Source: Tachypleus tridentatus (taxonomy: Eukaryota > Arthropoda > Merostomata > Xiphosura > Limulidae). Taken from it: DNA of 64,000 nt. Of this stretch, positions 1-61,112 are shown piece after piece. The notes beneath the pieces are model-generated. The model did no database searches. It saw nothing but the letters and a program-made list of their open reading frames with translations, and was not told the DNA's origin. Position 1 is the first letter of the stretch; each line of letters opens with the position of its first letter. The position numbers and the translations under genes are program-made. The stretch spans positions 12,648,001 through 12,712,000 of the forward strand of contig NC_134830.1 in NCBI RefSeq assembly GCF_004210375.1, written 5' to 3'.

Positions 1-1318
1 ATAAACAAAAACAAAGCTGCTACACTACTAAAAAATTCCACCAAGGTACAGGCTATAATGTAGGATATAAAATGTACCATTGTAGGCTTTGAAGGTTACT
101 GATGAAGTAGGACCCAAATTACGGTGGGGATACACCGTCTATCAGTCTTAACCTCTGTTTGCCAGTCTCATGTAAGGAATAATTAAATGATAAAATAATC
201 AAAGGAATAGAAAGAGAAATTAGGAGAGTTTGATGTGGGTATTCAAGCCCACAACATTCCACATCTATATCACCCTCTGATGCTTGCAGAGAGTTGTGGG
301 AAGGTGATTGCTAAGATTTAAGTTGTTTATCAGCTTATAAATGACAGGTAGCAAAATGGTTAAGATATATTAGTAGCAGTGACTCAGTTGGAGTGAAAAA
401 TAACTGGGTTTAGGACAAAAATGTCGTTTGCAGGAGAATATTCAATAGATGAAACTTTACGAGAAAGTGAGAAAAGTATATTTAATTAGTTGTACTCATC
501 ATTAGATTAATTGTTAGTTTCACTCTAAATGGGAACTTGCTCTTATTGGAAGTTGATATTAAGTACACTCACATACGTGTACACGTGTGGCTTATCTTAT
601 TTTTCGCTTGTAACTGTTTTAATAATCTATTCAGTTGATTGATTTCCGAAGCACTGGCTTTTGATTCGTTGAAGTCTATTCTCTTGGTATGGTTGTCACG
701 CATTACTAACTTCTTATTAACCACGGTATACTTCAATGCCTATTTATTACATGTTATCTACGTTCAAATATCCTGATGTAATAGAATAGCGCTAGCTCTA
801 AGTGATAATCTGTTCAAATACAGTTTGTTTGTTTACATTTAAAGGGAAGTCCGCAATAAGCTTAAAGGGTGGGTATTTTCTGCGTTTAATACGATCAGTT
901 CATCACTTTATGCTAATAAGAACCAAAATCCCTAATTTTGAACATCTTTCAAAGTTTTGGAATTGTTTTATAGACCAGGTTAAGCATTGTTTTCTAATGT
1001 CTGGGGATTTTTAGGTCTTAACATGATTATTAAATTATTGATGTAAGCAACGATTTCAAAAGAAAACATCAACGATTTCTGAATTTTCTAATTATCAGCT
1101 AATTACAAGTTTTCTAAGGATTTAGTTTTAAATCACTTAAAGCATTTCTCAAAATTAGTAGGTTTATTTACAGAGTTAAACTTTATCATCATATTGTATA
1201 TGTAACTGAAAACACCAGTTTTTGTAGAAGAGTATTAGAAAGTACCAGGCTTAACATGTACAGTTTCTAGACTTTTGTTTTAATTTTAGGCACATTAAGC
1301 CACGTTAAGTACTTTTAG

Positions 1319-1412
1319 GATGTCACCTGTAAGAGACAGAAGTGAGATTAGAACCAAAGTTAATGAACAACAAGTGAAAGATGGGGAAGAGATTTTAAAT
1401 AAGACTGCAAAC
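1319..1412 (+). other. Doubtful exon candidate, left block (copy A)
   Basis: An AG precedes an ATG-led frame that starts MSPVRDRS and stays open until it runs into a type-2 SINE at 1413. The same stretch lies at 44408-44504 in copy B. Several of the few differences between the copies change amino acids, which argues against strong selection. No donor site is obvious and no family is recognised. It could be a first exon, a decayed exon or chance. Confidence 0.15.
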
Positions 1413-1535
1413 ACCCCCTCTAGTGGAACAGCGGTATGTCTGCAGACTTATAATTCTAGAACCCGGTTTTGATACCTGTGGTGGGCAGAGCACAGATAGC
1501 CCTTTGTGTAGCTTTGTGGAAAATAACAAACAAAC
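1413..1535 (+). repeat. Type-2 tRNA-derived SINE
   Basis: tRNA-like head (CAGCGGTATGTCTGCAGACT, B-box-like CGGTTTTGATACC), then GGGCAGAGCACAGATAGCCC and the tail TAGCTTTGTGG, ending in a short A/C-rich tail. Matched at 44505-44622, so the insertion predates the two copies. Confidence 0.85.
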
Positions 1536-1840
1536 AATTAGACTGCAAAAGGTTATTGCAGAGTCTGGTCTGAAATTTAGAGGAATTAGTAAGTAGGAAA
1601 GAGTTAGGTATTTATGATAGTGTTTGAAGAGAAATACATTATATAACGTATAGCCTGAAGAATTTGAGATTCATGATTCAGCCGCCAGAAAAAGTAGATT
1701 CTGAATTTGTGCAAACACTATGGATTTTAACAATGTTAATAAATCTAAGCTTCGAAATGCAATACGTGTTGGAAGGAAACTGTTATAAGTCACAGTTCTG
1801 TATTTTGACCTAAATCCTTAAAATTGATCACGTCGGTTTG

Positions 1841-2060
1841 GTTTGAATTTTGCGCGAAGTTACACAGAAGCTATTTGTCTTCCCTCTTTTAGCAGCGATA
1901 GATGAAAAGCAGCACCTACCGCATACTCCTGGGCTACTCTTTTACCAACGAATACTGGGATTAGCCGTCACATTATAACGCCCCAACAACAGAAAGGGTG
2001 AAATGTTCGATGTGACGGGGATTCGAACCCGCAACCACTAGACCGATCATATCGGACACC
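1841..2060 (-). repeat. Type-1 SINE, degenerate
   Basis: Reverse orientation. The tail end (TTTTGCGCGAAG) comes first, the middle motif ACCAACGAATA is kept, and the tRNA-like head ends in GGGATTCGAACCC as read on the plus strand. The central part has diverged. Copy B has it at 44941-45155. Confidence 0.8.
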
Positions 2061-2239
2061 GAAAATAAAACATTAATGATGAAAAAGCTATCCAGTTCCT
2101 AAAAGTCATTGCCCAACAACCCACTTAAGAAACATCATAGTTACACACATGTGATACGACGAAAATTCGTAGAAACTCAAAGAAGAGTTGGAAAATTTTA
2201 GGCACGTCGTCCGTGGTCCGCCGTGGGCAAGAAGAACAG

Positions 2240-2450
2240 TTTGTTTTTTTTTAATTTCGCGCAAAGCTACTCGAGGGCTATCTGCGCTAGCCGTCCCTAA
2301 TATAGTAGTATGAGACTATACGGAAGGCAACTAGTCACCACCACCCACCGCCAACTCTTGGGCTACTCTATTACCAACGAATAGTGGGATTTACCCCACT
2401 ATTCGTTGGTAAAAGTCGAACGCCTTAACACGCTTGGCCATGCCGGGCTC
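2240..2450 (-). repeat. Type-1 SINE with an internal inversion
   Basis: Reverse orientation from the poly-T side to the tRNA-like 5' end (GGCCATGCCGGGC). Inside it the motif CCAACGAATAGTGGG is followed within six bases by its own reverse complement, making a short hairpin at about 2376-2413; part of the head is missing. The copy B version (45331-45570) has a longer loop. Confidence 0.85.
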
Positions 2451-2482
2451 AAGAAGAACAAAACTGTTCGACATCTCAAACG

Positions 2483-3010
2483 ATGAAATCCAATAAACGA
2501 AACAAAACAAAACAAGCTTCATATGATGAATTTTACAAAAGAAATTCTAATTATACTGAAAACTTAAATTTTAATGCATCGAGCTTATTTCGTATCTCTA
2601 CACTAATACAGATTGCTTTTGAAAAGCATTTGATGAGTTTAAGACGAGATATGCCCCTCAGTGACTCAACGGTATGTCTGCGAACTTACGACAACAGAAA
2701 CCGGGTTTCGATGCCCGTGTTGAGCTCCGTGCAATTGAAAACGAGGATTTTTTTATATCTAGTACTGATATTGATAAAGCTAATGTTTTAAGAAGGTTCT
2801 TCAATACTATTCTTAAAGTATTATTAAGTACTTAAAATAATATTCTATGCTATTCTAAAGAATCAAATATTTATATTTCTGATCTTAATGATATTGAACC
2901 CAGTGAGGAATGATCTACATGATAACGAAAGAGTTAAGGGACCACTACTGAATTTGCAAAAACTTTACGTCAAATATAATAAAGACAGATTTTCACTAGG
3001 AAATCAGGTT
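2483..3010 (+). other. Exon-like segments interrupted by a SINE piece
   Basis: A 102-codon frame starts MKSNKRNKTKQ and runs into a type-2 SINE piece at 2653-2725. Beyond it, 2726-3008 has a second stretch of protein-like composition, clearer in copy B (45865-46150), where segments such as LRAIENEDFFISSTDID and VKGPLLNLQKLYVKY can be read in shifting frames. No family is recognised. It may be a decayed exon or remains of a transposon; splice sites are not convincing. Confidence 0.2.
2653..2725 (+). repeat. Type-2 SINE, head only
   Basis: Head with CAACGGTATGTCTGCGAACT and B-box-like GGGTTTCGATGCCCG. Copy B (45773-45863) keeps about 20 more bases, including a GAGCACAGCACAG stretch missing here, so the copies differ by a small indel. 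Confidence 0.8.
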
Positions 3011-3351
3011 TACGTTTGTTTTTCTCTTGTTTTCCATCATCAAAAATCAACATAATGATTCTTTGAAATAAAGCAAAACATAAAAAACAAAAATGGAGAT
3101 CTTTAAATTAGGCTTCTGATTGCAAACTGGATCGATGGTATATGCAGTGCTGCTTTGTAGTATGCTACGTTGTAAGATAATGTTGTATGAAACAGTTACG
3201 ATACCATATTTCTGTACATACGGTTCTGTTGCTAGCTTGTTATAATCTAGTGACATCTTTGAATATATGATATTCAACACATTCTAAAATTACTAAATAC
3301 CTACACCTCCATTACTTAACGGTAAGTCTGATGTTTTTTACTAACGCTAAA

Positions 3352-3497
3352 AGTTTGTTTGTTTACTTTTGCATTTCGCACAAAGCTACTCGAGGGCTAT
3401 CTGTGCTAGCCGTCCCTAATTAAGCAGTGTAAGACAAGAGGGAAGGCAGCTAGTCATCACCACCCACCGCCAACTCTTGAACTACTCTTTTACCAAA
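3352..3497 (-). repeat. Type-1 SINE, 3' part only
   Basis: Reverse orientation; poly-T side, then TTTCGCACAAAGCTACTCGA, the AGACAAGAGGGAAGGC stretch and CACCCACCGCCAACTC, then it breaks into unrelated sequence. The left half of the hybrid SINE at 46482-46760 in copy B matches this element. Confidence 0.9.
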
Positions 3498-5560
3498 GTT
3501 ACATAACAAACTTCTCATAATTATTACTTTGATAGTATTAACTCGTTATGAAAAGTAAATAATTATTAAGTATGAAATCACTAAATAAACTAAATAATAA
3601 CTATTAAGTGAAGCAGTCTTGAAAATACAACTCTGACACTTTGTTCAACTACCAAAGCAGTCACGTTGCATCTCCTGTTTATCTTAGATAAAAAGATGTC
3701 TTTCAATGAAGTACTCTTGCTGTCTTATGACTCGACTTTTATTACATTTTATACCGGACTTACTCATGCTAAACAAGGCTCGTCAGTGACATGGCTTTAG
3801 TTTGTCACTTTGTTCAAGTGAATTCGAAATTTAGCAATTCGATAAAAAATATGCTAAGTAACAGTTTAGCCAGTGCTGAGTTACTGCGATAGTCTAAGCA
3901 TATGTCACAGCACACTAAGTCTTAATGCTTGAACTTTTGTTTCTTAATTAATTCTACATTGTAAGATCTCTTTTGCTTTGTCGTGGCCACACACAGTTGC
4001 CAATATGGAGGTTCGTGTATGTCAGCTAATGCAAATCTCAACCACCGTAAAGTCCTATGGAAATCTCTGTGCACCGACTGCAAATCAGATATATGATTAA
4101 CAGTCACTGCTGCTGCTGTTTCCAGTTACACTGTGTTCAGAATGTGGGTCTTCAGTTCAAAGACAAGTTCACATCATTAGCCAAGGCAGTTTGTCTGTTT
4201 CGTTCTTGCTGGTCTTATCTATGATCAATAAAAAAGTCGTATCCCTGCAATGTTTTATTCAACATGAAATAATCGCTTCCAAGTTTTGAATTTCACCAGT
4301 CATATCAGAGAAACATAATCTAAATGAATAGTGAATTTATGCAATACACATAATGACAGTAGCACTAGAAAAAATGCTGCATTTACGTGAAGTTCTTTCA
4401 AACAGTAACCGAATTATGAGTTGTTGCTATATGGTTCTAGCAGGCAATTGTATTCCTCCGTAATAATACTGGAATTTGTATCCAGGGCAAATGGACAGCG
4501 AAATCTTGAGAATGCTAACACTAGAACTTAAAATGAAGTATGTGTTTTAAGTTTAGTAGTCAGTTCAGACAATGGTGCAGCTATCTTGGAGAAATTGACC
4601 AAAATGTCAATATGAGTACACAAAGCTTAGAAAATGGTAAAGTATTTTAACCCTGGTAAGGACAAGTTTCAGACTACCATAACGTGTGCAGGATCAGTAA
4701 GCATAGCATTTGTTTACAGAATGTGTTTCATACGTGCACACATTCCTGGATTCATAATCAAACCTATCTGTCTGTGTAATGATAAACTGTACCCATGTTT
4801 TTAAAACAGACTGGAATGCCCAATCAAACATCAAGATATACATAAATTAAAGCATCTCTTCCAATGGATTCTTCTAAAAGAAAGTATATGTTACTGCAGC
4901 ACGATTGTGAAAGGTAACACGGAAAATCCTCACTACTCACTGGTAATTAGTATGACTGTGTACAGTTACTTTTGATAAGAAAACTATAGGTTAAACTTCG
5001 GTTCTTCAAGGCAAAGTTACCTTTTGAAGGTTTTTTGTTCTTGAAGACTATGAGCCATTAAAACTACCACTGTGAGTTTTTTTCCTCTCTCTGTCTTAAA
5101 GCTTACTTTTCAAACTTATTTGCACACAAACACCTTATGTCAGGACTTAAATATCTTTAAGATCCATATGGTGTCATACTGTAACTTTTGGAGACCTATA
5201 ATGAATTTATCAACAAGAATATTGCCACAATCTACAATTTTTTGTACTATATGCCCTTTCATTTCATAGAATAAAGAAATGATTAATTTACTTGGCATCA
5301 AGCATTACACTACCTTTCCCTAAGCTCAACCATTTCTGGCAGATAACTATCTCAAATATTTAATACAGCAATCTAGGTCCTCTTTAGTAATTGCCTCTAA
5401 TGTCAAAAAGTACTTTGTTTAATTTCACAAACATTAATTTTCAATACCTCTGTTAGTTTCTCACCAACATGTGACTCAGACAGCCACGCTATCAGGCTGC
5501 CTTTCATTAATGGAACCCAAAGACATGTGGCCCTTGACTTCGATCAATGGCTTTCCAAGA
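3498..5560. other. Copy A-only block, no recognised gene
   Basis: Present only in copy A. A 61-codon minus-strand frame at 3922-4107 contains LQSVHRDFHRTLRWLRFALA and looks protein-like, but has no family match I can name, no clear splice sites and no supporting neighbour. The rest is AT-rich with stops in all frames. Confidence 0.4.
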
Positions 5561-5661
5561 CTAGGAGGCTAGAGCGCTCGATTCGTAATCTGAAAGTTGT
5601 GGGTTCGAATCCCAGTCACACCAAAGATGAGAGATTTTCACCCATAGGGGCATTATAATAT
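5561..5661 (+). repeat. Type-1 SINE head (tRNA-like), partial
   Basis: Reads GCTAGAGCGCTCGATTCGTAA, then a perfect B box GGGTTCGAATCCC and CACACCA, then GGGGCATTATAATATGA, which is the segment after the head in type-1 SINEs. The 5' end does not pair with the 3' TCACACC as a tRNA acceptor stem would, so I call a SINE and not a tRNA gene. Confidence 0.75.
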
Positions 5662-6016
5662 GATATCCAATCATACCAAAGCTTATCTGAATTCAAGAGG
5701 TGAGCTCAATTTCTTTATCCACTTAACAGCATTACCTAGAAACCTTTTCTCCCCTACAACATTGCTCAACTGTTGTATTCAATTAACATCATGACGGGGT
5801 AACAAAATGGTGAGTTGAAAATGATTTAAAGACATCATAAATATTTCAAGTCCAGAAAAATGTACGCAGTATCATTGCGACAAATAACTGGTAAGTAAAT
5901 AAATATTTTATTGTTTCTCAATATAAACAGTCCAGTTATGTTACATGTATGATACGTTTTCATGTACAAAATTTGGGATTAAAAAAAAACAACTGCGTGC
6001 CTTTAATATGAAGAAA

Positions 6017-6133
6017 GTCAGCCGGTAAAGTAGTGGACTTATAACGTGAAAACACAGGTTTCGACTTTGATGCTTGTGGTGAGCACAAAATACATTGCCA
6101 ATTGTGCAGCTTTGCGCTTATCGACAAACAAAC
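6017..6133 (+). repeat. Type-2 SINE, diverged
   Basis: Head CAGCCGGTAAAGTAGTGGAC and CTTATAACG, B-box-like CAGGTTTCGACTTTG, then GTGGTGAGCACA and tail GCAGCTTTGCGCTTATC with an ACAAACAAACG end. Confidence 0.75.
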
Positions 6134-6242
6134 GAAAATAATTCTAATCGTAACAGTAACACATATTCTTATTATTTAATTATCAACTAACTTGATTCAC
6201 TAAATATCAGCATGGGATTGTTGCATATTTTATAAACAAAAA

Positions 6243-6372
6243 TGTGTTTGTGTGTGTTTTCTTATAGCAAAGCCATATACCGCTATCTTCTGAGCCCACC
6301 GAGGGGAAACGAACCCCTGCTTTTAGTGTTGTAAATCCGAAGACATACGACTGTACCAGCTGGGAGGCATAA
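6243..6372 (-). repeat. Type-3 tRNA-derived SINE
   Basis: Reverse orientation. On the minus strand: a tRNA-like head (GCTGGTACAGTCGTATGTCT, GGATTTACAAC), B box GGGGTTCGTTTCCC, then CTCGGTGGGCTCAGAAGATA and the tail GGCTTTGCTATAAG. The plus strand shows TTCTTATAGCAAAGCC and GAGCCCACCGAGGGG. The head resembles that of type 2. Confidence 0.8.
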
Positions 6373-6447
6373 ACAAACATAATGCAGATTGCATAGTGTC
6401 ATGAAAGAAGAGTTCCAGAAGAAGAAATAACATCTGAACTTACAACT

Positions 6448-6568
6448 GCCCCCCCAGTGGCTCAGCGGTTTGTCTGAGGACTTATAACGCTAAAAACCAG
6501 GATTCGACACCCGTGGTGGGCAGAGCACAGATAGCCCCTTGAGTAGCTTTGTGCTAAATTCAAAACAA
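6448..6568 (+). repeat. Type-2 SINE
   Basis: Near-complete: CCCCCAGTGGCTCAGCGG, GGACTTATAACGCTAAAAAC, CACCCGTGGTGGGCAGAGCA, CAGATAGCCCC, TAGCTTTGTGCTAAATTC. Lies in the block absent from copy B. Confidence 0.9.
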
Positions 6569-6822
6569 CTGACCCTACAAATCTTGCGAAAACACCAAAA
6601 CACCTATAATATTTTAACGCATAGTGTTATTTAATCAATATTAGTGATTCATCAGCCAAATACGAAATGTTCAAATTCTTTTTAGAAAAATGTGTGGAGA
6701 ATTATTTTTAGACAAGAATTAAATATCTTTTTTTAAATGTGCAAATGCTGACCTTCAGAAGGGATCTATTGAAACCCATGAGTGTTTCTCAAATTATGTA
6801 ATTAGGTAGCACGCGACTTTAA

Positions 6823-6922
6823 GCCCCCAGTGGTACATTTGAATGTCTGCAGACCTAGAACACAAGAAACCCGTTGTGGGCAGTGCGCAGATAGCCCATT
6901 GTGTAACTTTGTGCTTAACTTG
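6823..6922 (+). repeat. Type-2 SINE, shortened head
   Basis: CCCCCAGTGG, GTCTGCAGAC, CCCGTTGTGGGCAGTGCGCA, GATAGCCCATTGTGTAACTT and TGTGCTTAAC. Several bases are missing from the middle of the head. Confidence 0.8.
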
Positions 6923-6999
6923 TTATTATTCTAGAGGACGCAACCAAATAAAATAGAATAGGATTAACCTATTGTGTAATATGACTAATTGTTTAGTTT

Positions 7000-7273
7000 C
7001 TTTGTTTTTTTAAATTTCGCACAAAGCTACTCGAGGGCTATCTGTGCTAGCCGTCCCTAATTTAGCAATGTAAGACTAGAGGGAAGGCAGCTAGTCATCA
7101 CCACCCACCACCAACTCTTGGGCTACTCTTTTACTAACGAATAGTGGGATTGATCGTAAAATTATGATGTCACAACGGCTCAAAGGGCGAAGATGTCTGG
7201 CGCAACGGGGATGCAAACCCGCGACCCTCAGATTACGAGTCGCACGCCTGAACACGCTTGGCTATGCCGGGCC
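7000..7273 (-). repeat. Type-1 SINE, full length
   Basis: Complete reverse-orientation element from the poly-T side to GCTATGCCGGGCC. Distinguishing bases are AGACTAGAGG and CACCCACCACCAACTC. Its right-hand part and right flank match 46593-46760 of copy B, making it the second partner of the SINE/SINE deletion there. Confidence 0.95.
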
Positions 7274-7662
7274 TTTAATCGTTTAGTGCTGAAACGTTGA
7301 TGACAGAAACTAGAATGTTGCTGTAAGAGTAGTGAATCAAAGAATAAATTAACCTGCTCATCACTTTTCTTTTTAGCTTCACTCACTTCACGTTTCGGAA
7401 GAGAATTTAAACATTTAAAGCAATCTGTTTGTCTGCGAAATAATGTTATTCAAACACCTAAATTAATTTAGAATAGTGGCAAGGTCTACAATATTCGATC
7501 TAAATCAAACAAACTGCATGCATTCCACCCCAATAGTCATAGTACATGAGGTTCAAGTTATTTATTTTCTTTTATCTTTCCAGCATCACTAATGACGTGT
7601 ATTTCTAAAAAACATGAAAGTAGCGAATCGAAAAATACATTGGGATCTACTTCATCACTGAC

Positions 7663-7920
7663 AGGGCCGAGCGCGTAGGGCGTGCGACTCGTAATCCGAG
7701 GGTCGCGGGTTTAGCGCCCGCGTCGCGCTAAACGCCTTCCAGCCATGCGGGCGTTATAATGTGACGGTCAATACCACTATTCGTTGATAAAGAGTAGCCC
7801 AAGGGTTGGCGGTGGGTGGTGATGACGAGCTGCCTTCCCTCTAGTTTTACACTGCAAAATTAGGGACGGCTAGCACAGATAGCCCTCGAGAAGCTTTGTG
7901 CGAAATTTCAAAAAAAACAA
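7663..7920 (+). repeat. Type-1 SINE, full length
   Basis: Head GGCCGAGCGCGTAGGGCGTG with a CGT anticodon-like loop (GACTCGTAATC), GCGTTATAATGTGACGGTCA, the conserved centre (CACTATTCGTTGAT, GGCGGTGGGTGGTGATGACG), then CAGATAGCCCTCGAGAAGCT and a poly-A tail. The copy B counterpart is 47149-47406. Confidence 0.95.
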
Positions 7921-7970
7921 CAAAAAACTTCATCATTGTAATTTAAGCGTGAGTGATTTAAACTGATAAA

Positions 7971-8092
7971 AGCCCCTTGGTGTCTCAGCGGTATGTTTGT
8001 GGACTTACAACGCTAAAAACCGCGTTTCGATACCCGCGATGGGCAGAGCACAGACAGCCTATTGTGTAACTTTGTGCTTATTTCAAAACAAC
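7971..8092 (+). repeat. Type-2 SINE
   Basis: Complete: TCTCAGCGGTATGTTTGTGG, B-box-like CGTTTCGATACCCGC, GGGCAGAGCACAGACAGCCT, TGTGTAACTTTGTGCTTATT. Copy B has it at 47457-47577. Confidence 0.9.
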
Positions 8093-8093
8093 A

Positions 8094-8160
8094 ATGTGTG
8101 TGTTTTTCGTATAGGAAAGCCACAAAGGGCTATCTGCTCAGCCCACCGAGGGCTGATTCA
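8094..8160 (-). repeat. Type-3 SINE, 3' end only
   Basis: Plus strand reads TTTTCGTATAGGAAAGCCAC and GGGCTATCTGCTCAGCCCAC, the reverse of the type-3 tail, and stops before the tRNA-like head. It abuts the type-2 SINE at 7971-8092. Copy B: 47578-47645. Confidence 0.75.
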
Positions 8161-8690
8161 ACAAGCTATTGTTGATTCATTTTTTCTAATTACTTGTTAT
8201 TTAGGTTTTATTGCATGTAACGTAACTATATTTTATTTGAATTAATTTTAGTAAAATTAATTTAAAAATATCATGGTTATAAGAATTATAAAAAAGGTGT
8301 TTAAAAAGTAGATTACTTAATTATTTGTTAATTTTAAAAAGTATATAAATTTTTCTTTTAGATTTAGTAAAATATTGCGAGTTCCTAGTTACATTTGATT
8401 GGCTACAACACTTATAGTATTGTTATATTTTATAATGTGTGGTTGCTTAGCAAAATAGAACGTTTGTAACGGTTTTGATGAATGTGATGTAAATGTGACT
8501 GCTCGCTCGTGATAATTTCCAGAAAATCAAAAAAAATATTAGTTTCAGTTTAAAAGAAAAAGAAAACTGTTGGTTATATTACAAACATTACCATCCTTCG
8601 CACGTTTTTAATAAATCAAAAGTTTTATTGAGCCTATTATTTTGTAATATATTGAGCTTTAAATTTACACCATTCCAGACATTAGGCTTA
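8161..8690. other. AT-rich stretch, nothing recognised
   Basis: No long frame, known repeat or splice-bounded exon seen. Matched with a few per cent divergence at 47646-48178. Confidence 0.5.
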
Positions 8691-8692
8691 AC

Positions 8693-8772
8693 ATGGCTCA
8701 TGTTATTATTAAACACCAAACTAACCAGCAAACGAGATGGCTTGTTCCAAAGGTTATAGTGAAAATTCTAAC
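8693..8772 (+). other. Weak exon candidate before a strong donor (copy A)
   Basis: An ATG-led short frame (MAHVIIK) leads to a textbook donor, GTAAGT, at 8773. Copy B (48180-48260) has the same donor and reads on to SEHSN at the boundary. In neither copy does its phase fit the next recognised exon (49037), which needs one base left over from the exon before it. It may be an unrelated start, an exon with an indel, or chance. Confidence 0.25.
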
Positions 8773-8819
8773 GTAAGTGTGTGTGATTCACAAAATTATG
8801 TCTGATTTATATTAATTGC

Positions 8820-10925
8820 ATACAAGTTAGTAAAGGAGCTTGTTGTCAAAAGTTGAAGTTACCACAAGCAAGATAATCAAACCTCTGTGGAGTTTGCCCA
8901 TGAAAAAGATAATTATTTTGATTGATGATGTAATATTGTGCATTTTGGCAACAAAGTTTTAGAAATTAAGACAACTATGTTTAATTGCAGAATTTAAATG
9001 CTGTACTAGTGATGACCTGAAAACTTACTTTAATGAAAAGAAAGTTGAAACACTATAAGAAGCAGCTGCTCTTTCCAGTGATTACACTTATACACATAAT
9101 ACCAGTTTTCATGAAAAGAAGTTCCTTCCAGCTCAGTAAAAACCTGTACCTCTTCAATTCACTAAGGTTGAGAATTTTAAAACAAATTCCAACTTCTCTA
9201 ATTCAAATTCTTCAGACACACAGAATCATCAAGGTCTCTCTGCCATTTCTGTAAAAATCCTGTCATGTTTGATTTTGGCAGTTTGAAAAATAAAAATGAA
9301 AAGAAAGCAGCATTCAGTATGTTCACGTCCATGTATTGATATGGTTTCTCCAGATCACCTGATGTTGTTGATTTGGTCACTAACAGAAAGGCTTATGTAG
9401 TTATGGAGAAATATAAGTGTTTTGTGTCTGTTGGTTCTGTGTATTTGGCATAGGATACTGCTAATCTTATACCCACATGTATTTTAAATGATACTGGAGT
9501 TACTCAGTCATTATTCTTAGAGGGTGTATTGGCTTTAAATTTGAGTTTTGCCACTGGTGAGTCTGTTATTGCTCAGGGTATTGAGGTTGGCTTTGTTGAT
9601 GTTCCTTTTTATAACATTTATTAGCATCAGACCTAGTTTCAGGACCATTTGTTGATGGAGTAAAACCTACTCTCCCAATTTAGGGTGTATCACTATTGTT
9701 GGAAAAAGATTTGGCTGGGGGAAGAGTTGTTGCCAAATTCAAAATGGTTATCTAGCTGAAAAAACAGTGATCAATTAATTATCAGTGGGACAATTACTTA
9801 ATGAATGACAGTGAAAAACATAAGAGATCTGGTTCACCTGTGAAGCTCAGCTGGAAGTAAACTTGTCGTTGAGCAAGAAAAGGATCCAAAGTTCAAATCA
9901 CTATTTAAACGTGCACCCCGAAAGAATCAACTGGAGAAAGTTCCGTATGGTTACTTCTTATGTATATGTATATCAAATATTTTAGTTAAAAAATTGTGTA
10001 ATATCAATTTTTAATTCTCTAAAAGAAGGATATGTAATGGATTTACCATTACACATTTATTTTAAAACCTGTGTTTGTTTCAGTTTGATGCATGTGATGT
10101 ATATTGTGCAAGTCCTGCTTCTCCTATAAATTTGTAGAAGATTCTCAAGAGCAAGAATCAACAATACATGTTTTATTATAGTACTAGTGTGTCTTGGAAT
10201 GTTGTTGAATGTTCTAGAATCTTGCCTAATTGGTATAAATGCCAGCTGAGACACAGTAATAGAATATTATTGGCCAGCTGTAGTCAGTATGCTATGAGAT
10301 TCAGAAGTTATAATTGCCATTGACACTTATTAATTGGAAAACTACAGAATGTGGTCAAGAACATTTATAGACTTTGAACATTATGAACCATTCAACTTCA
10401 GAGAATTAACTTTGGAGGTTAGTATTTCTATGAAGACAATAGATATCTCTGTTGTCTTCCTTTGTTAAAGGAAACCTTGTAAACTGCATAAGGCCAAACA
10501 AGTAAAGAGCTAGCGAGCATTTTCATCAAGTGAAGTTTATTTGTCCATCAACATAAAAGTAATTTGTCCTTCATGGTCTTAGACTGTCGATAAACTATTC
10601 AATTCCAGACCAGATAAAAGACTGAATATTGTTTGCGAGTTTGTAAAATTTTTGTAATAATCATTATTTTAAATTGTATTGTTTTTTGTGTATAAATATA
10701 TATTTGTGTTAAGAAGGAAAATTTTGTGTATCAATGTTGTTGGCAAGTATAATAAATTTGATACATATTAACATTTTATTGACTACTTCTAAGTTAAAAT
10801 TTCCAGCATATTTTTAAAATTGTAATATGCAACATACATAACATAATAAATTGGAAACTCTTCCAGGATAAATAATAATATGTAACAGGAGAACTCCAAT
10901 GACTCAACTGTGAGAAACAATAAGG
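8820..10925 (+). mobile_element. Ty3/Gypsy-like LTR retroelement fossil (copy A, partial)
   Basis: Broken remains with several breaks. A Gag-like stretch (QDNQTSVEFAHEKDNYF) lies near 8870-8920. A retropepsin-like stretch lies near 9480-9720, with the family pattern DTG, then SLFLEG, and later LLLEKDLAGG. An LTR follows, starting TGTAA at 10033 and running to at least 10780, possibly 10925, where similarity to the 5' LTR-like sequence of copy B fades. The LTR matches the solo LTR at 22471-23235 with clear divergence, so this is an old insertion. The fuller version is in copy B (50920-53670). Confidence 0.8.
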
Positions 10926-11099
10926 GATAAGAAGTCATTTCATTATTATTTGATGGAGAAAGTAATTTATATAGACTTACAGTATGAAAACAACATACAA
11001 AAGTTTTATTAATATGTTCTTGTACAGAAGAAGTGTAATTAGTTTTAAGTCTTAGTAACATATTAAAGTAGTTTTATTTTAGGATTTTTTAAAAGGTTG

Positions 11100-48638: not shown

Positions 48639-49036
48639 CAACAATAATAGTATAAATTAGTGAATGTTTTTTATATATAATTTTTATTTATGGAAAAGAA
48701 ATGTTTCCCAAACTTCTTCTTGACCATGTTCTGTCTTTGTTGCAATAGTAAATTTTTTTTAGATGATTGTGTTGATGATTTAAATTTTAACTGATATTCA
48801 ACTTGTATATATATATATATGTAAAGAAATTTAATTAATATTTTTTGGAACTTTAAAGGGAGCATAGAATTCTGACTGTGGCTGAAAATCTAATGACAGT
48901 GTTATATACTCATAGAATTCAACAAGATTTTAAAATATATGACTTTTGCCATTGGCTCATAGCAATCTCTGACATTTGGTCTAGAATTAAGAATAATATA
49001 TGTATACTATAAGTGTTTCCATTGTTTAATTTTCAG

Positions 49037-49194
49037 GCTACAGACCCCAGAGGAGAGAATACATCTCTCTCTCGTTATGCCAAGATGTATTTGAGAGAAA
49101 AGATGAGGGAATTGATAAATTACGTGAACAAATACACCAGTTGAGAGAAGAATTTGCAGAAATGAAGCCCAAAGTGGTTCAAAGTGCTAACATG
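49037..49194 (+). CDS. Pericentrin/AKAP9-like protein, upstream coiled-coil exon (copy B only)
   Basis: 158 bases between acceptor AATTTTCAG and donor GTGTGA. After two bases that finish a split codon, 52 codons are open: YRPQRREYISLSLCQDVFER, then KLREQIHQLREEFAEMKP and VVQSANM, ending in phase 0. The second half is a clear coiled coil. The exon before it must end with one extra base; I did not find it. The end phase fits the next exon at 50307. Copy A lacks the whole region. Confidence 0.65.
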
Positions 49195-50306: not shown

Positions 50307-50560
50307 ATCAAAGAGTTACAAGGAACTTTAGAAGATAAACAAAGTTATCTACTAAAGAAGGACAGAGTAATGGCTAAAAAAGAAGTGGAATTGAAAGACC
50401 ATCAGAAAAGTTATGAATCATATCAACACAAAATTTTCCAGCTTAGTGCCCAAATAATTCAAAGGATGGTGACCTTGCAGAGATGAAAAAGGAGAATGCC
50501 CAGCTTCAAATTCAAATCAACACTCTCCTTGAAGAAGTAGAATGTATGAGAAACTCCCAG
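50307..50560 (+). CDS. Pericentrin/AKAP9-like protein, coiled-coil exon (copy B only)
   Basis: Lies between a weak acceptor (CATTATAAG) and the donor CAG then GTACAT, phase 0 at both ends. Reads IKELQGTLEDKQSYLLKKDR, then KKEVELKDHQKSYESYQHKI; a one-base loss in the G run near 50463 shifts the frame. Allowing for it, the exon continues LAEMKKENAQLQIQINTLLE to MRNSQ. Its 254 bases would be 255 with that base. Strong coiled coil throughout. It precedes the large exon at 57540 across an intron that carries the Gypsy-like, DIRS-like and mariner-like elements. Confidence 0.7.
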
Positions 50561-50919
50561 GTACATTTTGTTATCTTTACTGCAGTTTTCACTGTATTTC
50601 TGTATGACCTGTTGTGAAATTAATAATCTAATAATACAGGTGTTTAGGAATTTCAACTTTTATGTAAAAATCAGTACATGATTATGAGAGATGGTTTACA
50701 TATATACATCTTTAGTATTTTAGAAGGAATTTGTTATGATATCATGACGATGTAATATCTAGAAGTTCATGAAAGTTAAGGCAACCTTGAAATCTAGACG
50801 TTTCTTGTATTTTATAGAAATAAGAGTACTGTATAAGTGTCAGATTGAATGAGTTATTACTGAGATATTCAGTTCAATGTCAGTCAGTATTATTTACTTT
50901 TTTTATATTAAACAAAATT

Positions 50920-53670
50920 TGTCATAAGAAAGAAAATTGTATGTGTCAATCTTGTTGGTAAGTTTCATAAATTTGATACATGGAACATTTAAGTAACTTC
51001 ATAATCAAAATTTCCAGCTATTTCAAATCATAATATATAATGTATATAGCATAATAAATTAGACTCATCTTAGATAAATTATGACATGTAACATAATATG
51101 GATGCTTGTCTAGGAACTGAATCAGAGACAATATTTGTTCTAAATTAAAATAAAAATCCTAATTCAATTTATATTTATTAGTGCCAACAAGATTATATCA
51201 TGTCCGATTATCAAGGTTTTCTTGAATCACCCTTCTTCGAACAATGAGAAAACATAACAAAAGATAATTGCTTGAAATTACCAAAATCAGAGAATTAGAA
51301 GTTAAAATACCATGAGAAAAAATGAACTAAAAAGCATATTGTTGAAATATTAGTCTGATGATTTTTTGTTTGGGGAAGCATCAGACGAATACCCTGGTGT
51401 CTGAAAATGAAGTTGAAAAATGCTTCCAATGTTTTTACAACATTGCCCAAGCCATGGAATAACCCACCAAAAATGATCATTATTGTTACAGAGTGTTTTG
51501 ACTGGTAAAGCACAAGAAGCATATGCCACTCCACAAGATTGCACTAATTATGATAAGATTAAAGAAGCTATTCTCAAAGCATACAAGTTAGTAAAGGAGC
51601 TTGTTGTCAAAAGTTGAAGTTACCACAAGCAAGATAATCAAACCTCTGTGGAGTTTGCCCATGAAAAAGATAATTATTTTGATTGATGATGTAATATTGT
51701 GCATTTTGGCAACAAAGTTTTAGAAATTAAGACAACTATGTTTAATTGCAGAATTTAAATGCTGTACTAGTGATGACCTGAAAACTTACTTTAATGAAAG
51801 AAAGTTGAAACACTATAAGAAGCAGCTGCTCTTTCCAGTGATTACACTTATACACATAATACCAGTTTTCATGAAAAGAAGTTCCTTCCAGCTCAGTAAA
51901 AACCTGTACCTCTTCAATTCACTAAGGTTGAGAATTTTAAAACAAATTCCAACTTCTCTAATTCAAATTCTTCAGACACACAGAATCATCAAGGTCTCTC
52001 TGCCATTTCTGTAAAAATCCTGTCATGTTTGATTTTGGCAGTTTGAAAAATAAAAATGAAAAGAAAGCAGCATTCAGTATGTTCACGTCCATGTATTGAT
52101 ATGGTTTCTCCAGATCACCTGATGTTGTTGATTTGGTCACTAACAGAAAGGCTTATGTAGTTATGGAGAAATATAAGTGTTTTGTGTCTGTTGGTTCTGT
52201 GTATTTGGCATAGGATACTGCTAATCTTATACCCACATGTATTTTAAATGATACTGGAGTTACTCAGTCATTATTCTTAGAGGGTGTATTGGCTTTAAAT
52301 TTGAGTTTTGCCACTGGTGAGTCTGTTATTGCTCAGGGTATTGAGGTTGGCTTTGTTGATGTTCCTTTTTATAACATTTATTAGCATCAGACCTAGTTTC
52401 AGGACCATTTGTTGATGGAGTAAAACCTACTCTCCCAATTGAGGGTGTATCACTATTGTTGGAAAAAGATTTGGCTGGGGGAAGAGTTGTTGCCAAATTC
52501 AAAATGGTTATCTAGCTGAAAAAACAGTGGTCAATTAATTATCAGTGGGACAATTACTTAATGAATGACAGTGAAAACATAAGAGATCTGGTTCACCTGT
52601 GAAGCTCAGCTGGAAGTAAACTTGTCGTTGAGCAAGAAAAGGATCCAAAGTTCAAATCACTATTTAAACGTGCACCCCGAAAGAATCAACTGGAGAAAGT
52701 TCCGTATGGTTACTTCTTATGTATATGTATATCAAATATTTTAGTTAAAAAATTGTGTAATATCAATTTTTAATTCTCTAAAAGAAGGATATGTAATGGA
52801 TTTACCATTACACATTTATTTTAAAACCTGTGTTTGTTTCAGTTTGATGCATGTGATGTATATTGTGCAAGTCTTGCTTCTCCTATAAATTTGTAGAAGA
52901 TTCTCAAGAGCAAGAATCAACAATACATGTTTTATTATAGTACTAGTGTGTCTTGGAATGTTGTTGAATGTTCTAGAATCTTGCCTAATTGGTATAAATG
53001 CCAGCTGAGACACAGTAATAGAATATTATTGGCCAGCTGTAGTCAGTATGCTATGAGATTCAGAAGTTATAATTGCCATTGACACTTATTAATTGGAAAA
53101 CTACAGAATGTGGTCAAGAACATTTATAGACTTTGAACATTATGAACCATTCAACTTCAGAGAATTAACTTTGGAGGTTAGTATTTCTATGAAGACAATA
53201 GATATCTCTGTTGTCTTCCTTTGTGAAAGGAAAGCTTGTAAACTGCTTTAGGCCAAACAAGTAAAGAGCTAGCGAGCATTTTCATCAAGTGAAGTTTATT
53301 TGTCCATCAACATAAAAGTAATTTGTCCTTCATGGTCTTAGACTGTCGATAAACTATTCAATTCCAGACCAGATAAAAGACTGAATATTGTTTGCGAGTT
53401 TGTAAAATTTTTGTAATAATCATTATTTTAAATTGTATTGTTTTTTGTGTATAAATATATATTTGTGTTAAGAAGGAAAATTTTGTGTATCAATGTTGTT
53501 GGCAAGTATAATAAATTTGATACATATTAACATTTTATTGACTACTTCTAAGTTAAAATTTCCAGCATATTTTAAAATTGTAATATGCAACATACATAAC
53601 ATAATAAATTGGAAACTCTTCCAGGATAAATAATAATATGTAACAGGAGAACTCAATGACTCAACTGTGA
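50920..53670 (+). mobile_element. Ty3/Gypsy-like LTR retroelement fossil (copy B, fuller)
   Basis: LTR-like end sequence lies at about 50920-51140, similar to the region after 10710. The internal region runs about 51185-52700, with Gag-like features (KAQEAYAT, LVKELVV, QDNQTSVEFAHEKDNYF) and a retropepsin-like stretch near 52240-52480. The 3' LTR starts TGTAATGG at 52792 and runs to about 53540 or 53670. No RT or integrase region is visible between them. The two LTR-like ends differ substantially, so the insertion is old. Several breaks. Confidence 0.8.
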
Positions 53671-53849
53671 GAAACAATAAGGGATAAGAAGTCATTTCAT
53701 TATTATTTGATGGAGAAAGTAATTTATATAGACTTACAGTATGAAAACAACATACAAAAGTTTTATTAATATGTTCTTGTACAGAAGAAGTGTAATTAGT
53801 TTTAAGTCTTAGTAACATATTAAAGTAGTTTTATTTTAGGATTTTTAAA

Positions 53850-56000
53850 AGGTTGTATCCAAGTGTTTATGGTGCTAATCCCTCTCCTTATTTGTTACTC
53901 ATGGTCAGTGTTAGCTAGTGCAGGTATATCTGCTTCTCTTTTATGTTATAGATAGAATCTTCACAAAAGTTTCTCAGGTTCATGCACAAGGGTCAGATGC
54001 TGCAGTTCAGGTCTCTGGCATTTGGTTTTGCATCAGCACCTTATGTCTTCTGCAAAGTTGTTTGAGCATTTTCTCATCACCTGCATTCCTTGGGGCTGTG
54101 CACACATCATTATATGGACAACTGGCTCCATCCCTTCAATTAGCTTAAAACACTCTCACATTCTCCTTTCAGATGCCACAGAAGCAGGCTTCTTTATTAG
54201 ACTGGAGAAATCTGTTTGGTCACTGACACAATATCTCGTGCATTTGGATGTGTTTTCAATGCTCACTTGAGTCATGCACAACCAATTCCTGTGAGGCTTC
54301 AAGTCATGGAAAGAGCCATCAGGCTTTCACTTGTGTATCTTTCTTTTACTGCAGAGATGGTTCTCTCACTTTTGGAGATGAGGGCATTCCTCTCAAGCCT
54401 CTCATTTTTTTGGGATGGACACATATGAGATCCTTTTAGTAGTTTCTGCATGAACAGTGGGTCATGCATTCTTATTCTTTGTATTATCCTGTCTCCTTAT
54501 CCAAGAGCAACTTCATTGATTACAAATGGTGGTTGGATCACAACAACATAAATATTGAAGCATTCATTCCACAACCTCCTCCCTAGATCCATCTGTTCAC
54601 AGATGCATCTCTTCAGTGATAGGGTAGCTTATCTTCAAGGTCAGAACTTCGATGGTACTTGGAGAGAAGATTGTAACTTATTGAAATTCTCAACTGGAGT
54701 TATTGTGGTTTCCAGTACCTCATCCTCAAGCATTGGCAGTTGTTACATTCATTCAGGACTGAAAAGGATTTCAACTGTACATCTTTCCCTCAATTTGGCT
54801 ATTGATTCATTCTACTCTCTGTCATCTTCTCTTGGTTGCACCATATTGGCCAGCTCAATCAAGCATTGTTTCTACGTTTTCAGTATCTGCATGAATGTGT
54901 ACCTCCATCATTTCTGCACTGGCAGTATCTGTTGAGACAACCATGAACAGTCATTTTCCATCTACATGGTCAGAAACTCAGTCTTCATGCTTGGAAGTTA
55001 TAGTTTTTTACCCAGCATATGGATTTAACTTCTAAGGTTTCTCTGTATTTAACTGTACATCTCCATTTGCCAACCACAATCGTTTATCAATAGAAATGGA
55101 ATATTTATCATAAATGTGGTATTAAAGGAACTTCAAACCTCTTCACCCAAAAGTATTTACCATATCTTGTTTTATGAGTTGAGTATTTGAGAAGGGTCTT
55201 GCTTCATCAACTGTGGCTTCATATAAGGCATCCTTATCCACTGTTTTTAGTTATTCTTAATGTTTGGAAGGCTTTTGAATCCTGAGCTCTATCAGGTTTG
55301 CTAAAATCCTTTAGTATTCTTCAGCCCAAATGACATTTTTAATTACATAATTTAATTTTACAGTTGTTTTACATACATTTTCTCAATTTCTTTTCAGCTC
55401 TTACCTTTGTTTTCTTTGTTTCACTTTTTTTTAAAATTATGCTTGTGGACATTATCTCTCAGAATTGTTTGCAGTCTATATACATAGAACTCTATCATGC
55501 CACATTTGTACTTCTTGACTCCTGTCGGTCTTTTCTTCACAAGACTCTGGTAAGCAGGAAAGAGAAAATATCCTTTTCACTAATCCATTTATCAGCTGTT
55601 TCTCACCTTTATTACTGCTCTGATCATGACCATTTGTTATGTCTTGTACGGGCCCTCAGGTATTTAGTAGCTTGTAATAACTCATTCTGAGGTACCAGGA
55701 ACTGATTGTTCATTCATTAGGATCCTTCTATTTCCCATTACCCTAACGAGGTGGTTTATCATATTGAATCACATAGCCTGAAATGGATTATCATTACAGG
55801 AAAGGAATCTTCTGCATGTCACATTTGATCAGGTTAATAATATCTCAAAGTTATTAGCCACCTAACTTAATCATCCTCTGGAAGACTATCCTCTGGGATA
55901 GTATGTAGACTATTATTAATACTTTCCTATCTTATTACTTACCTGATCTGGCAGTTTCTTCTTCTGAGTGTTTTCAAATACCACATGAATATATTTTTAA
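53850..56000 (+). mobile_element. DIRS-like fossil (copy B)
   Basis: Near-identical to 11100-13250: RT-like region about 53915-54440, RNase H-like near 54590, recombinase-like about 55150-55830. Long stretches show no substitutions between the copies. Broken. Confidence 0.75.
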
Positions 56001-56689
56001 TGCATCTATTAGACTATAACCAGAATGGAGTATTTTTCTCAATCATATATTTTTTTTAGCCCAATATCTCTGTTTTTCACTGGATCTCATTCTGTGATAA
56101 GTGTTGCCCAGGTAGATTCTGTTGAAGTGGGGTGTTTTATAAGGCCATCTAGAAACCTACCACATGGTATTACATTGTTATTATTGACCACCACTCATGG
56201 ACTATCATGAGTAGAAATAAAATGGACCCTGCCCATTCTTGCCAATATTCTGGTTGAATAAATTAGGATTAATTTTCTTTTAAAATGTACAAAATGCAGT
56301 TAAACTATTGCAGAGTCCTTGGTAGAGCACAGGTTCCACATCCTCTATAATTATTGTGATAACTGTTAAAACTAAATTGATGTTATATTCCAGTCACTGG
56401 TTGATAGACAAGGTACCTTTCTTGCTGAAATAATAGAAAACAAATCCAAACAAAAATCTGGCTGAAGTTTCTTTCAAACTAAAACTAAGAATAGTAGATA
56501 GGCAGGTGTGCATACCTAACATGAAAAGAACGTATTTTTTTATGGAGACCAAAGTAAACTCCCATTACAAACAGAATGTTGTTTAAAGATGAAATCCACA
56601 GCCATTGTAGTCATTCTTCAGATAGTAATAAGTAGTTTTATACATTTTTGATGTAAGCAAAAATACACTTAAGATATACATATACGGGG

Positions 56690-57230
56690 TGTCTGAAAAT
56701 GAATATACCAAAAAAAACGGTTGAATGCTTTATTGTTATTTAAGATAACAATTGGATATAAAGACAAGCACTAGGCTTGTAAAGTTTAGTTTTAATTGGT
56801 AATGTACTTTTACAAGTCTTCAATTATTCTCTAAAATTAATTTAATTCTGCTTTCAAATTCTGAGAAATTTTCCAACACAGCAGTAGGGATGGATAAGAT
56901 AACTTCACAAATCTGATGTTTCAGTTTTCAAGGTCTTTTGATTTGTTACGGTAGACTTATGTTTTTAAAAAATATTTCAAAGGTGAAAATTTAAAGGGGT
57001 TCAATTGTGTGTCCAAGAGGGCTGTTTGATAGGTTTTCCTCTACCAGTCCAACACTGAAAAAGTTTCACTTAAAATCTTTAACAATTCAAGCAACATGGG
57101 GTGGTGTTCCATCCTGTTTGAAGGTATCTCTTTGTAACAAACCAAGTGTTTCTTGGAGTTGTGGAATAAAGAAACAATTCATTTGTCAAAAAATAATTAA
57201 TATTAATTTATTTTGGACACTCTGTCCACA
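56690..57230 (-). mobile_element. Mariner/Tc1-like DNA transposon, 3' end (copy B)
   Basis: Counterpart of 13928-14475, differing by homopolymer length only; inactive remnant of a DDE transposase C-terminus and one element end. Confidence 0.7.
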
Positions 57231-57539
57231 AACATCTTATTACCTCAGGAAACTTTGATAAAGAGTGTACTTTTGCAAATGTATCTGTAGATTTAGAAAA
57301 TATTTCTAAGTGATGAGTCATATTAAGTAATCAAGATTGAAAAAATTAGATTAAATATCTTAATTTCTTGATCTGTTGAATAAACAAATTTTGCATGAAG
57401 GAAATAGAAAAAATTATTTTCAGGAATTATAGGTATTGCCTGAATCATGCTATATATAGATATTTATATTAAAAGTATTCTTTACTACTGGCTTTTAATG
57501 TGATCTTTTTTATTATTATGCATCATTGGTACTATCCAG

Positions 57540-58808
57540 GAAAGTATATCATCCTTCAAGAAGTATGTAGAAGAAAGTAGAGCAGTAACACCTGACCTCA
57601 TAAATACTGTATTAGTGAAACAAATTGCTGAAAATGAAATAATTTGTCAACAGCAGTTGAAAAATACAGAAAACATTTGGAAAAACAAAATGGATGAAGA
57701 GTGCCAAAATATCAGCAAAGAATTTATGCAGAAAATGAAAGAACTGGAATTTGACCTCAAACAAAAGTTTGAGAAAGAAAAAAGTGATATAGAACAGAGA
57801 TACAAGACTAAAATGTGTGAAATGGAAAAGATTTAAAACACCAGTTTAAAACAGAAAAGGTGAAGATAGAAAAAAAGATTGAAAATTCATATAAGCAGAA
57901 AATTGGAATATTGCAACAGTTGCATGCTGATGAGAAACAAACTTTACAAAATTACATTATGATGAACTTCAGGCCTCAGAAAGACAACAAACTAAAATCT
58001 TGAAAGCTTTAGAAAACAATTAAATGACTGCCACCAAGAACATATTTTGTCTTTAAAAATGACTTTCTTCGTGCAGAGAGATTGTTCAAAAGGATAATAA
58101 AGAAAGTATCAAGCTTTTGCAGGAAGACTTTGAAAAGAAGCTCAAATTTGAATGTCATTCACTTAATATTAGTCATCAAAATGAAGTAAATGAATTAAAC
58201 AGTAAGTTCCAGAATGATATATCTGCTGTACAGATGGCTCACCACGAACAGTTTCAGAGATTGGCAGAAGATCTGAGGAGACACTGGGAAGTTGAAAAAT
58301 CTGAACTTCAGAAACTTCATGCTGAAGAAATTGAAGCAATCAAAGAAAACCTTAATAGACAGTTTGAACGTGAGAAACAAATAATGAAAAAGCACATATT
58401 GAAGAAACAAATGAACTGAAAAGGTCAGTGAAAATCTCTTGAAAATATAATAAATAATCTCAAGTTTTTTTGTGAAGAAAAGTCAGGGCATGCTGTTCAG
58501 AGTCCTTGAATATGAAAAGCATTCATTGAATGATACAAATAGTTTTGAACTTTAAAATTTCAAGAGGAATGTAAGAGCATCATAAGTGGTGAAAAGCAAA
58601 AGCTCAAACAAAAATATGTTGAGCAGTTGAAACAAGAAGTGGAAAAGCTTCGTGAACAGTTTTAGAAGAATATAAAAGTTTTGTCTTACCAACAGAGAAG
58701 CTTATGAAAAGAAAAAGCTTACTCTACAGCTCTGTTACAAGCTCTTGAAACAGAATGTGTGAAAGTAACCAGTTACAGTTGGCTGTGGAATCAAAAGAAA
58801 AGAATGAG
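57540..58808 (+). CDS. Pericentrin/AKAP9-like protein, large coiled-coil exon (copy B)
   Basis: Same exon as 14789-16068, with identical acceptor (CTATCCAG) and donor (GTATGG). It measures 1269 bases where 1284 are expected. It keeps GAACTGG near 57746, where copy A has lost a base, but has more losses later, mostly in A, T, C or G runs between about 58400 and 58780. Protein segments are otherwise the same as in copy A. This pattern looks like poor consensus sequence rather than gene decay. Confidence 0.7.
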
Positions 58809-61112
58809 GTATGGAAAGCTTAAGGTTGCTAATGATATTAAAAATTTTTAAACCAAATTCTAAGAGTGAACACAATAAGTTTATACTTACATGCACTTTT
58901 ATCTGTTACTTAATAAGAGCTCTTCTTTATTCTGTTTTATGTTCAATGATTTTTAAACTATTATTTTAAAAAACTGAAAACTTGAAATATGTTTGTGTTG
59001 TAGCTTTGCACTTTGCATATTATTTTTAGTTTTCTGTTTATAACAGAACAAAAAGGACATTTAATTTTACCAATGGCTTCTAGTACATTATTTGTCCTTT
59101 CATGGTTTTTGGAGTGTTATATAAGTTAAGTCATACATCTCTGCTACAGTTTTAATAGAAAGTTTGTTTTCAACTTTACAAAGAACCTTAAAGAAATGTT
59201 GATCTCCAGTGGAGGTGGAATATCTTATCTGTTTTCAACACCCCCTGATATTGAAAACTTCAGAAGTCCAAGTACAAATAGGTATATTGTGTGTGTATAT
59301 ATTTTTTCTTTCTTTCTTACAAAACCTACTTGTGATTTTTAAAGACAGAAAAATTGCTGCAAAAAATTATAAGCACGCACAGTTGCACTTACTCTGAAAA
59401 TATTTGTTTACAAAAACCAAACATGCAAAGTTATTGAATAAAATGTATGACCAAAATTAATTATGTTCTAACTTGTAAATATTAGTTATATTGACTACAG
59501 AACATTATTTTTATCAGTAGTTTAAATATAATATTTTTTATTCCCTCACGACATCTGTAAAGTACATCATATAAACGTTTTAATTCAGAAAAGCTACATG
59601 TGTAGACTCTAACCTTCCACAAATGTATCGTTATCTATGCACAGTAGTCCATATTCTTTCTTCTGCACTGCTAGTGTTTATATTATGATGCTTTCAAATT
59701 TTGCAGTATTGAAATTTTGGGCAATTACCTTCAGTTTCCCCCACACACACACACCATGGATTTAAAGATTGATGTTTCTACAATATCCAATGGCCCTAAC
59801 ACTCCAGGATTCTTCTCCTGCTGTTTCATTGTTAACAAGAGACACTTTGTTTGTCAACGATGTTGTCATCATTTCACATCAGGTGTTTGGTCGTCTTGTG
59901 TCTCACTACTTCTGTCTTTTTTTCTTTACGTCTATAATTACTCAGGTATGTGACTTTGTTTTTTCCCATTTCTTCTTCTGACTTTCTTTTCTCCTATCCT
60001 TCCCCAAACATTGGTGTTCATACTGATGATTTTCTGTCCAACTAATGGGCTCTCCATATCAGTTTTAGCCTCTTCATCTTCAGTACTTTTATTGTTCCCT
60101 ATGCTTTTGGTACTCTTGTTGTTCTTGAGCCTTAATCCGAGAATGTCTTCTTATTCAGGGTGCTCTATTTTATGTTTTATTTATCTTCAGTCTCTTTGTC
60201 TTCATTTTGCCATCATGTAACTCCTTTGCTACTTGTCTTTTCTTCACCTTCTCTCAAAGTCTGTCTATTAGGACCTCAACAGTTTTTATGGGATGCTCTT
60301 TCCTACTTGTTCCACACTTTAATCTTGATCCATTTTACTGCTTTGTTACTGTGGTTTCTTTGTTTCAGGAATTTAGTTGGTTGCAAGATCTTTCAAGGTG
60401 TTCAAGACTCTTTGAAATTTCATTTTGAAGCTGCTTGTCTTTTTTCATTTTCTTCCGTACCCAACAACAAATTCTGTAACAATTACCCTTTTCAGGAGTT
60501 GCACAGATTTGTCCTCTGTCCTGTTCCTCATTCTTTTATCCCTTTCATAGGGTTGGGAATTATTGTTCATGTAGAAGACTTGTCTTGTGTGCTTCCTGTC
60601 AGCTCAGGTCCTGTGGAATTCAGCCAAACACGTATGAACTCCCTGTGCTAACAGTCTTTAGCTCATGAACATGCTTTCTCATGGTCTGTCCCTGTGTTGT
60701 CAAACTCCACCCCACCCCTCAGCTTTTTCTCTTGTGACTTTTTTTAACTTACATCTCATTCTATGCATCTTCAAGCATCTCAATAACAATTTATTCTATT
60801 TACTGACTTAGATTGGACACCTCCTTTACTCTTTATCACAAAGATCAGTTGATTTTATTTCTGTAACTCTCATTTCTCTCTAAAACTTGAGCTACATGAA
60901 AAGAAAATGGGATTTCTATTTCCCATCATTCTGGCTTCCATTTCTTTATACAGCCATTTTAACTCTGACTGTTTTGAGCCTGGTTTGAGCTATTCTTTAT
61001 TTAACTGGAACTGCCCCTTCTTACCATGGTATTTCTTCATTTCTCATGACTGTTCATTTTATCATGTCACCTCCCATTAGGTTTGTCAAGGTTTTTCTTG
61101 TCTCTTATAATT
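58809..61112. other. Intron of copy B up to the gap
   Basis: Matches 16069-18377, including the C/T-rich block. Nothing further recognised. Confidence 0.6.

Follow-up and report, generated by a model that had tools for sequence, protein, structure and literature searches.

Tandem segmental duplications evolve in concert through interlocus gene conversion and unequal crossing-over, and gene conversion has reportedly taken place between the copies of OPN1LW/OPN1MW. False duplications also occur in long-read assemblies. Here we describe a mosaic tandem array, with a gene that has a large exon, in the horseshoe crab Tachypleus tridentatus. The window analyzed is a stretch of 64,000 nucleotides, C6:12648001-12712000, where C6 is the scaffold of the T. 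tridentatus assembly (2,167,478,450 bases in 205 contigs) that contains it; the sequence is best explained by a recent tandem segmental duplication on C6, with a unit of about 42.7 kb, of which the window covers a part. As in tandem duplications that evolve in concert, the units are in tandem and partly near-identical, copies are mosaic, and there are patches that may be exchange tracts; unlike in those systems, loci placed about 19 Mb away also have the young part, and two short interspersed nuclear elements (SINEs) form the unit junction. The locus also shares with false duplications the presence of near-identical copies with gap borders and probable homopolymer errors, but its head-to-tail junctions lie within contigs and the 3.3% divergence of its left part does not fit alleles. 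A published limulid genome likewise has lineage-specific tandem clusters, although it is from another species, its clusters are given by gene name, and the term "gene conversion" is not in its main text. Among the listed papers that pair the horseshoe crab with gene conversion, none is on this array, as judged by title or the start of the abstract, and no other search for the array in print was made.

Tandem units and their junction

A 184-kb stretch (C6:12568001-12752000) was compared with itself, with only matches longer than 600 bases listed. Units A and B (Table 1) follow one another with a period of ~42.7 kb; the start of A at C6:12646602 pairs with that of B at 12689727, and homology extends leftward beyond position 1 in A and beyond 43110 in B. 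An earlier note on this DNA had described positions 1-18377 and 43110-61112 as the same locus present twice. Sequence comparison bears out the homology of these blocks, but the locus is not limited to two copies, since there are others at C6:12.58-12.62 Mb and C6:31.36-31.57 Mb, and also on contig C112, which is unplaced. Moreover, 43110 is not the junction but simply pairs with the first base of the window, and 61112 is not an edge of the duplication but the last base before an assembly gap of 500 unspecified bases (500 N). Three such gaps are present in the 184 kb (C6:12580455, 12633292, and 12709113). X2 (52 kb) and X3 (75 kb) are gap-bounded contigs, and A and B are both on X3, with no gap between them. 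Contig C112 (60,071 bases) also contains two tandem copies, 1-17329 and 42732-60071, which are 99.33% identical.

The true junction, J, is composed of a forward SINE piece ending GGGATTAACCGTC, followed by a reverse SINE remnant, GGTGTGTGGTGATG, with GTC there in both kinds of flank. We take this repeat to be the tRNA-derived SINE known from Limulus. J is common to the unit boundaries of X3 (A/B), X2, C112 (twice), and the 31.39-Mb locus, and it is present in 5 of 5 aligned unit boundaries and in 0 of 4 aligned flank arrangements. The copies are therefore arranged head to tail, and the junction of unit end to unit start is found within contiguous sequence. Because retention of haplotypes creates no junction like J, it is very likely, from the sequence as assembled, that at least one tandem duplication is real. 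Suffix-prefix overlaps of X3 with X2 and with C112 were considered as proof of a wrong contig order and rejected, since any tandem array yields such overlaps. At the 31-Mb locus, parts of the unit are in opposite orientations across a 500-N gap (C6:31358509-31361541 on the minus strand and 31362042 onward on the plus strand), which is either a palindrome or a scaffolding error.

Divergence along the units

The left blocks of A and B (1-3496 and 6995-8820 in A) show 175 substitutions over 5284 aligned bases and 23 indel events, 9 of which are in homopolymers, whereas the right block (8818-18377 in A) has only 25 substitutions in 9526 aligned bases (0.26%) and 39 indel events, 28 of which are in homopolymers. 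Gaps and N are omitted from these and all other pairwise substitution counts. The contrast in substitutions between left and right has a Fisher p of 7.5e-53. Bins of ~1 kb contain 18 to 41 differences between A and B left of the step (1.9 to 4.1%; 21 in the last bin, which has 576 bases) and 0 to 7 (0 to 0.7%) right of it. These values agree with the earlier description of left blocks a few per cent apart with indels and right blocks that have almost no substitutions and differ mostly in homopolymer length; the expected step is sharp, at 8818, and, as the note had argued, a single event of a single age cannot account for both patterns. The left part is discontinuous, as A has an extra 3498 bp and B an extra ~3.27 kb. 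The latter segment (B 48306-51578) is missing from A exactly at the step, with borders read by eye, and, with up to 3 mismatches allowed, the sequence of the A join at 8817/8818 has a single occurrence in the genome. Based on these comparisons, the mosaic is a real feature of the sequence. The two SINE copies that border the 3498 bp of A are 91.7% identical, which fits a SINE-SINE deletion in the B lineage. Part of 51481-52400, read by eye, resembles a retroelement gag.

Table 1. Coordinates of units, blocks, junctions, and exon parts (window positions)
Feature	Position	Strand	Description
Unit A	1-41562	+	From self-comparison; true start at C6:12646602, 1399 bases upstream of window position 1
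Old-type left block of A	1-8817	+	3.3% divergence from B where aligned; nearest relative is S3, C6:31.56 Mb
A-specific 3498 bp without partner in B	3497-6994	+	Between direct-repeat SINE copies 3352-3496 and 6995-7137
Step and join	8817-8818		B 48306-51578 missing here; its ends have no bases in common
Young right block of A	8818-18377	+	Partner of 51579-61112
Large-exon part in A	15277-16083	+	268-aa open frame; E/K/Q-rich, coiled-coil-like
Junction J	41564-41801		Forward SINE piece and reverse SINE remnant; GTC on both sides of the join in flank arrangements
Unit B	41727-61112	+	From self-comparison; ended by assembly gap
B segment without partner in A	48306-51578	+	Exon-like open frames 49039-49194 and 50447-50543
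Right block of B	51579-61112	+	Large exon with many single-base deletions
Large-exon first part in B	57504-57836	+	110-aa open frame before frameshift
Assembly gap, 500 N	61113-61612		From sequence

The multi-copy alignment contains A, B, C (on X2), D (on C112), S1 (C6:31391643-31413065), and S2 (C6:31362042-31374991). Over 20 bins (about 19.3 kb), there are 45 substitutions between B and C, 42 between B and D, and 55 between C and D (0.2 to 0.3%), with 0 to 10 differences per 1-kb bin and 0 to 3 in 47 of the 60 bin comparisons. S2 differs from B at 28 of 12911 positions. Up to B 50726 (nine bins), S1 differs from B at 139 of 8940 positions; in the ten bins beyond, it differs at 14 of 9581 positions. 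The last S1 difference of the left type is at B 50694 (only positions at which C and B agree were used in the difference lists for S1, S3, and A). This change in divergence near B 50694 indicates that S1 is a second mosaic with a step of its own.

A further copy, S3, was read over the 5.3 kb next to the step and is known elsewhere from the places of its matches. The best match elsewhere for the A-only sequence 4700-6300 is C6:31565771-31567374 on the minus strand (99%). On the left, S3 has only 4 differences from A in 1049 bases, and it retains the segment that is missing from A. Up to B 49999, S3 differs from B by 3 to 8% in 8 of 11 250-base bins and by 0.8 to 2% in the remaining three. There are no differences from 50089 to 50993, nine from 50993 to 51424, three from 51850 to 51865, and no others up to ~B 52380, where the stretch ends. 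S1 and S3, which are placed about 19 Mb from the window, have an old left part and a young right part like A, with other step positions. Divergence changes sharply along one pair, and the same part is young in several copies. In the second half of the unit, comparison of C with A yields nine clusters of differences (a cluster being at least five differences spaced ≤250 apart), for example, 52 differences in 24508-26677 and 51 in 40495-41723, while 28724-33677 is nearly clean. D has four such clusters, D0 has two, and C0 has none.

Homopolymer indels and probable consensus error

Private changes were scored in columns with one deviating copy and at least four copies present. The right block has 3 private indel events and 4 private substitutions in A, 16 and 10 in B, 10 and 10 in C, 5 and 6 in D, 7 and 5 in S1, and 14 and 12 in S2. 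Fifteen of the 16 private indels of B are deletions and 11 of the 16 are in homopolymers; the 1.36-kb exon zone of B alone has 7 private deletions and no private substitution. When the 1326-base exon is compared with that of S1, the numbers of frame-shifting indels and substitutions are 4 and 0 for A, 16 and 3 for B, 3 and 1 for C, 5 and 2 for D, and 8 and 3 for S2. Single-base deletions this abundant, alongside so few substitutions, suggest consensus error and not age or decay, and in large part the homopolymer difference resembles long-read consensus error that was left uncorrected. The possibility that the frameshifts in B represent gene decay was rejected, given 16 indels versus 3 substitutions against S1. 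The left part, with 20 private indels in C against 6 in B, speaks against a simple contig-end effect. The homopolymer differences, which look largely like consensus errors, carry little information on age; the age signal is in the substitutions.

Origin of the mosaic

We conclude that the mosaic array probably results from non-allelic exchange, a later deletion in A, and assembly error, which is a process of a known kind. The units would have arisen by tandem duplication where two opposed SINEs match over 3 bp, and non-allelic gene conversion and/or unequal crossing-over would then exchange sequence among the copies. This exchange would make the right part of the unit near-identical in the compared copies, while the left parts of A/S3 and S1 would keep their older divergence. 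In the A/S3 lineage, the boundary between old and young sequence would lie near B 50.09-51.42 kb, as is still visible in S3, and A would have lost B coordinates 48306-51578 by a blunt deletion across this boundary. If A comes from an S3-like copy, such a deletion of the whole transition zone would leave one abrupt step that coincides with the deletion. The recent gene conversion of the right block that the earlier note had listed among its options fits best, based on the S1 and S3 mosaics and the patches in C and D, but unequal exchange fits equally well as the mechanism. The patchiness of the second half and the S3 patch at 50993-51424 fit conversion tracts, and several crossing-overs could also give them.

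Several points weigh against this explanation. The linkage of left to right blocks, the copy number, and the placement at 31 Mb all come solely from the assembly, and S3 counts only for the span over which it was read. The three steps fall within 1.5 kb, which is not what random exchange predicts. Polishing with short reads could raise the apparent likeness of near-identical copies, and conversion and crossing-over are indistinguishable here. Finally, some of the exon indels relative to S1 are common to several copies, so not all are private errors and S1 may hold errors of its own, and C has its 20 private indels in the left part.

One other explanation is a chimeric assembly, in which the assembler attached separate, diverged flanks to a single near-identical core that it had collapsed or mis-walked. 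Cores that are 0.2 to 0.3% apart are hard to separate with noisy reads, and several contigs terminate inside the unit. However, a mis-walk is expected within identical sequence and not at a divergence border, the step positions differ among A, S1, and S3, and the step in A is accompanied by a unique 3.27-kb deletion, all of which makes a chimera unlikely.

It is also rather improbable that unpurged haplotypes account for the array, that is, that the scaffolder set alleles of a smaller number of loci side by side, either A and B or some among B, C, D, S1, S2, and S3. An excerpt of a T. tridentatus genome report gives a heterozygosity of about 0.65% and a k-mer genome size of 2.14-2.15 Gb (PMC6390705). 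The 0.26% divergence of the right block is below that heterozygosity, the contigs here are short with 500-N gap borders, C112 is unplaced, and a piece of the flank has a 98% copy 6 Mb away. In contrast, the left block of A is 3.3% from B, about five times the heterozygosity in the same excerpt, and the k-mer size given there is close to the 2.167-Gb assembly; J is within contigs, twice on C112, and A and B are on one contig without a gap. For the same reasons of left divergence (3.3% versus about 0.65% in that excerpt) and head-to-tail junctions within contigs, a haplotype switch alone, another option of the earlier note, does not fit the left part. Divergence is therefore not at the level of alleles throughout; B, C, and D are within the allele range among themselves, and alleles of one another may be present among B, C, D, and the 31-Mb copies.

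That A is a hybrid unit from one unequal crossing-over at the 3.27-kb gap, without conversion or an S3-like ancestor, is very improbable, for although the step and the missing segment coincide and A is at the left array edge on its contig, S3 has the left block of A, keeps the segment, and has an earlier, patchy boundary of its own, and the A join is without homology.

Duplicate ages estimated from pairwise identity can vary by a factor of about ten inside a single unit, as they do here, and copies that are frame-shifted in this assembly may be intact genes whose reading frames were disrupted by homopolymer errors. The array, if true, would be a compact system in which to measure exchange tracts, in a chelicerate whose genome has undergone several rounds of duplication; if not, it serves as a warning on gene counts in this assembly.

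The gene and neighboring features

The large exon in S1 has a 442-aa open frame that is E/K/Q-rich, and from this composition the gene product may be coiled-coil-like. The label "centrosomal" that the earlier note had attached to the gene is unsupported: none of five exon-derived proteins is above the Pfam cut-off (DUF4709 is sub-threshold, with an E value of 0.018), and neither of two exon-derived proteins matches a solved structure (PDB) at E ≤ 0.1, the best E value being 0.11. A 252-aa large-exon query matches at least 60 pieces in the genome, of which at least 24 are on C6, at least 2 on C112, and at least 34 on other scaffolds; these counts, like other genome match counts for large families, are lower bounds. 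The stretch 16200-18300 has at least 29 matches (at least 23 on C6, at least 1 on C112, and at least 5 elsewhere). One tentative possibility, which we hold to be doubtful, is that a coiled-coil-like family expanded largely along one chromosome and that its copies exchange sequence over a distance of about 19 Mb, the exchange ends being concentrated within 1.5 kb of the unit (B 50.09-51.58 kb); such a recurrent conversion boundary would keep the large-exon half near-identical while the other half diverges.

A scan of the window against Rfam gave no matches at gathering scores. The mitochondrial contig of the assembly (15,008 bases) encodes COX1 when translated with the invertebrate code, and COX2 seems to come immediately after it; ARAGORN, run with bacterial settings, predicted 0 genes in the mitochondrial piece. 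The flank stretch L017, used as a query, gave scored matches to short repeats; a ~228-base repeat in it (8708-8935) has copies that are 94 to 100% identical on many scaffolds and is perhaps a recently active element. Beyond the gap, the sequence 62150-63950 has a 98% copy about 6 Mb away at C6:18848512-18850315 on the minus strand, representing either a recent duplication or a misplaced haplotig. A broken non-long-terminal-repeat retrotransposon is on the minus strand at 33898-35741, with an endonuclease (PF14529) above the Pfam cut-off at 34924-35400 and a sub-threshold RVT_1 at 33898-34368. A minisatellite at C6:12745354-12747551 has self-matches at 32-base steps across about 2.2 kb.

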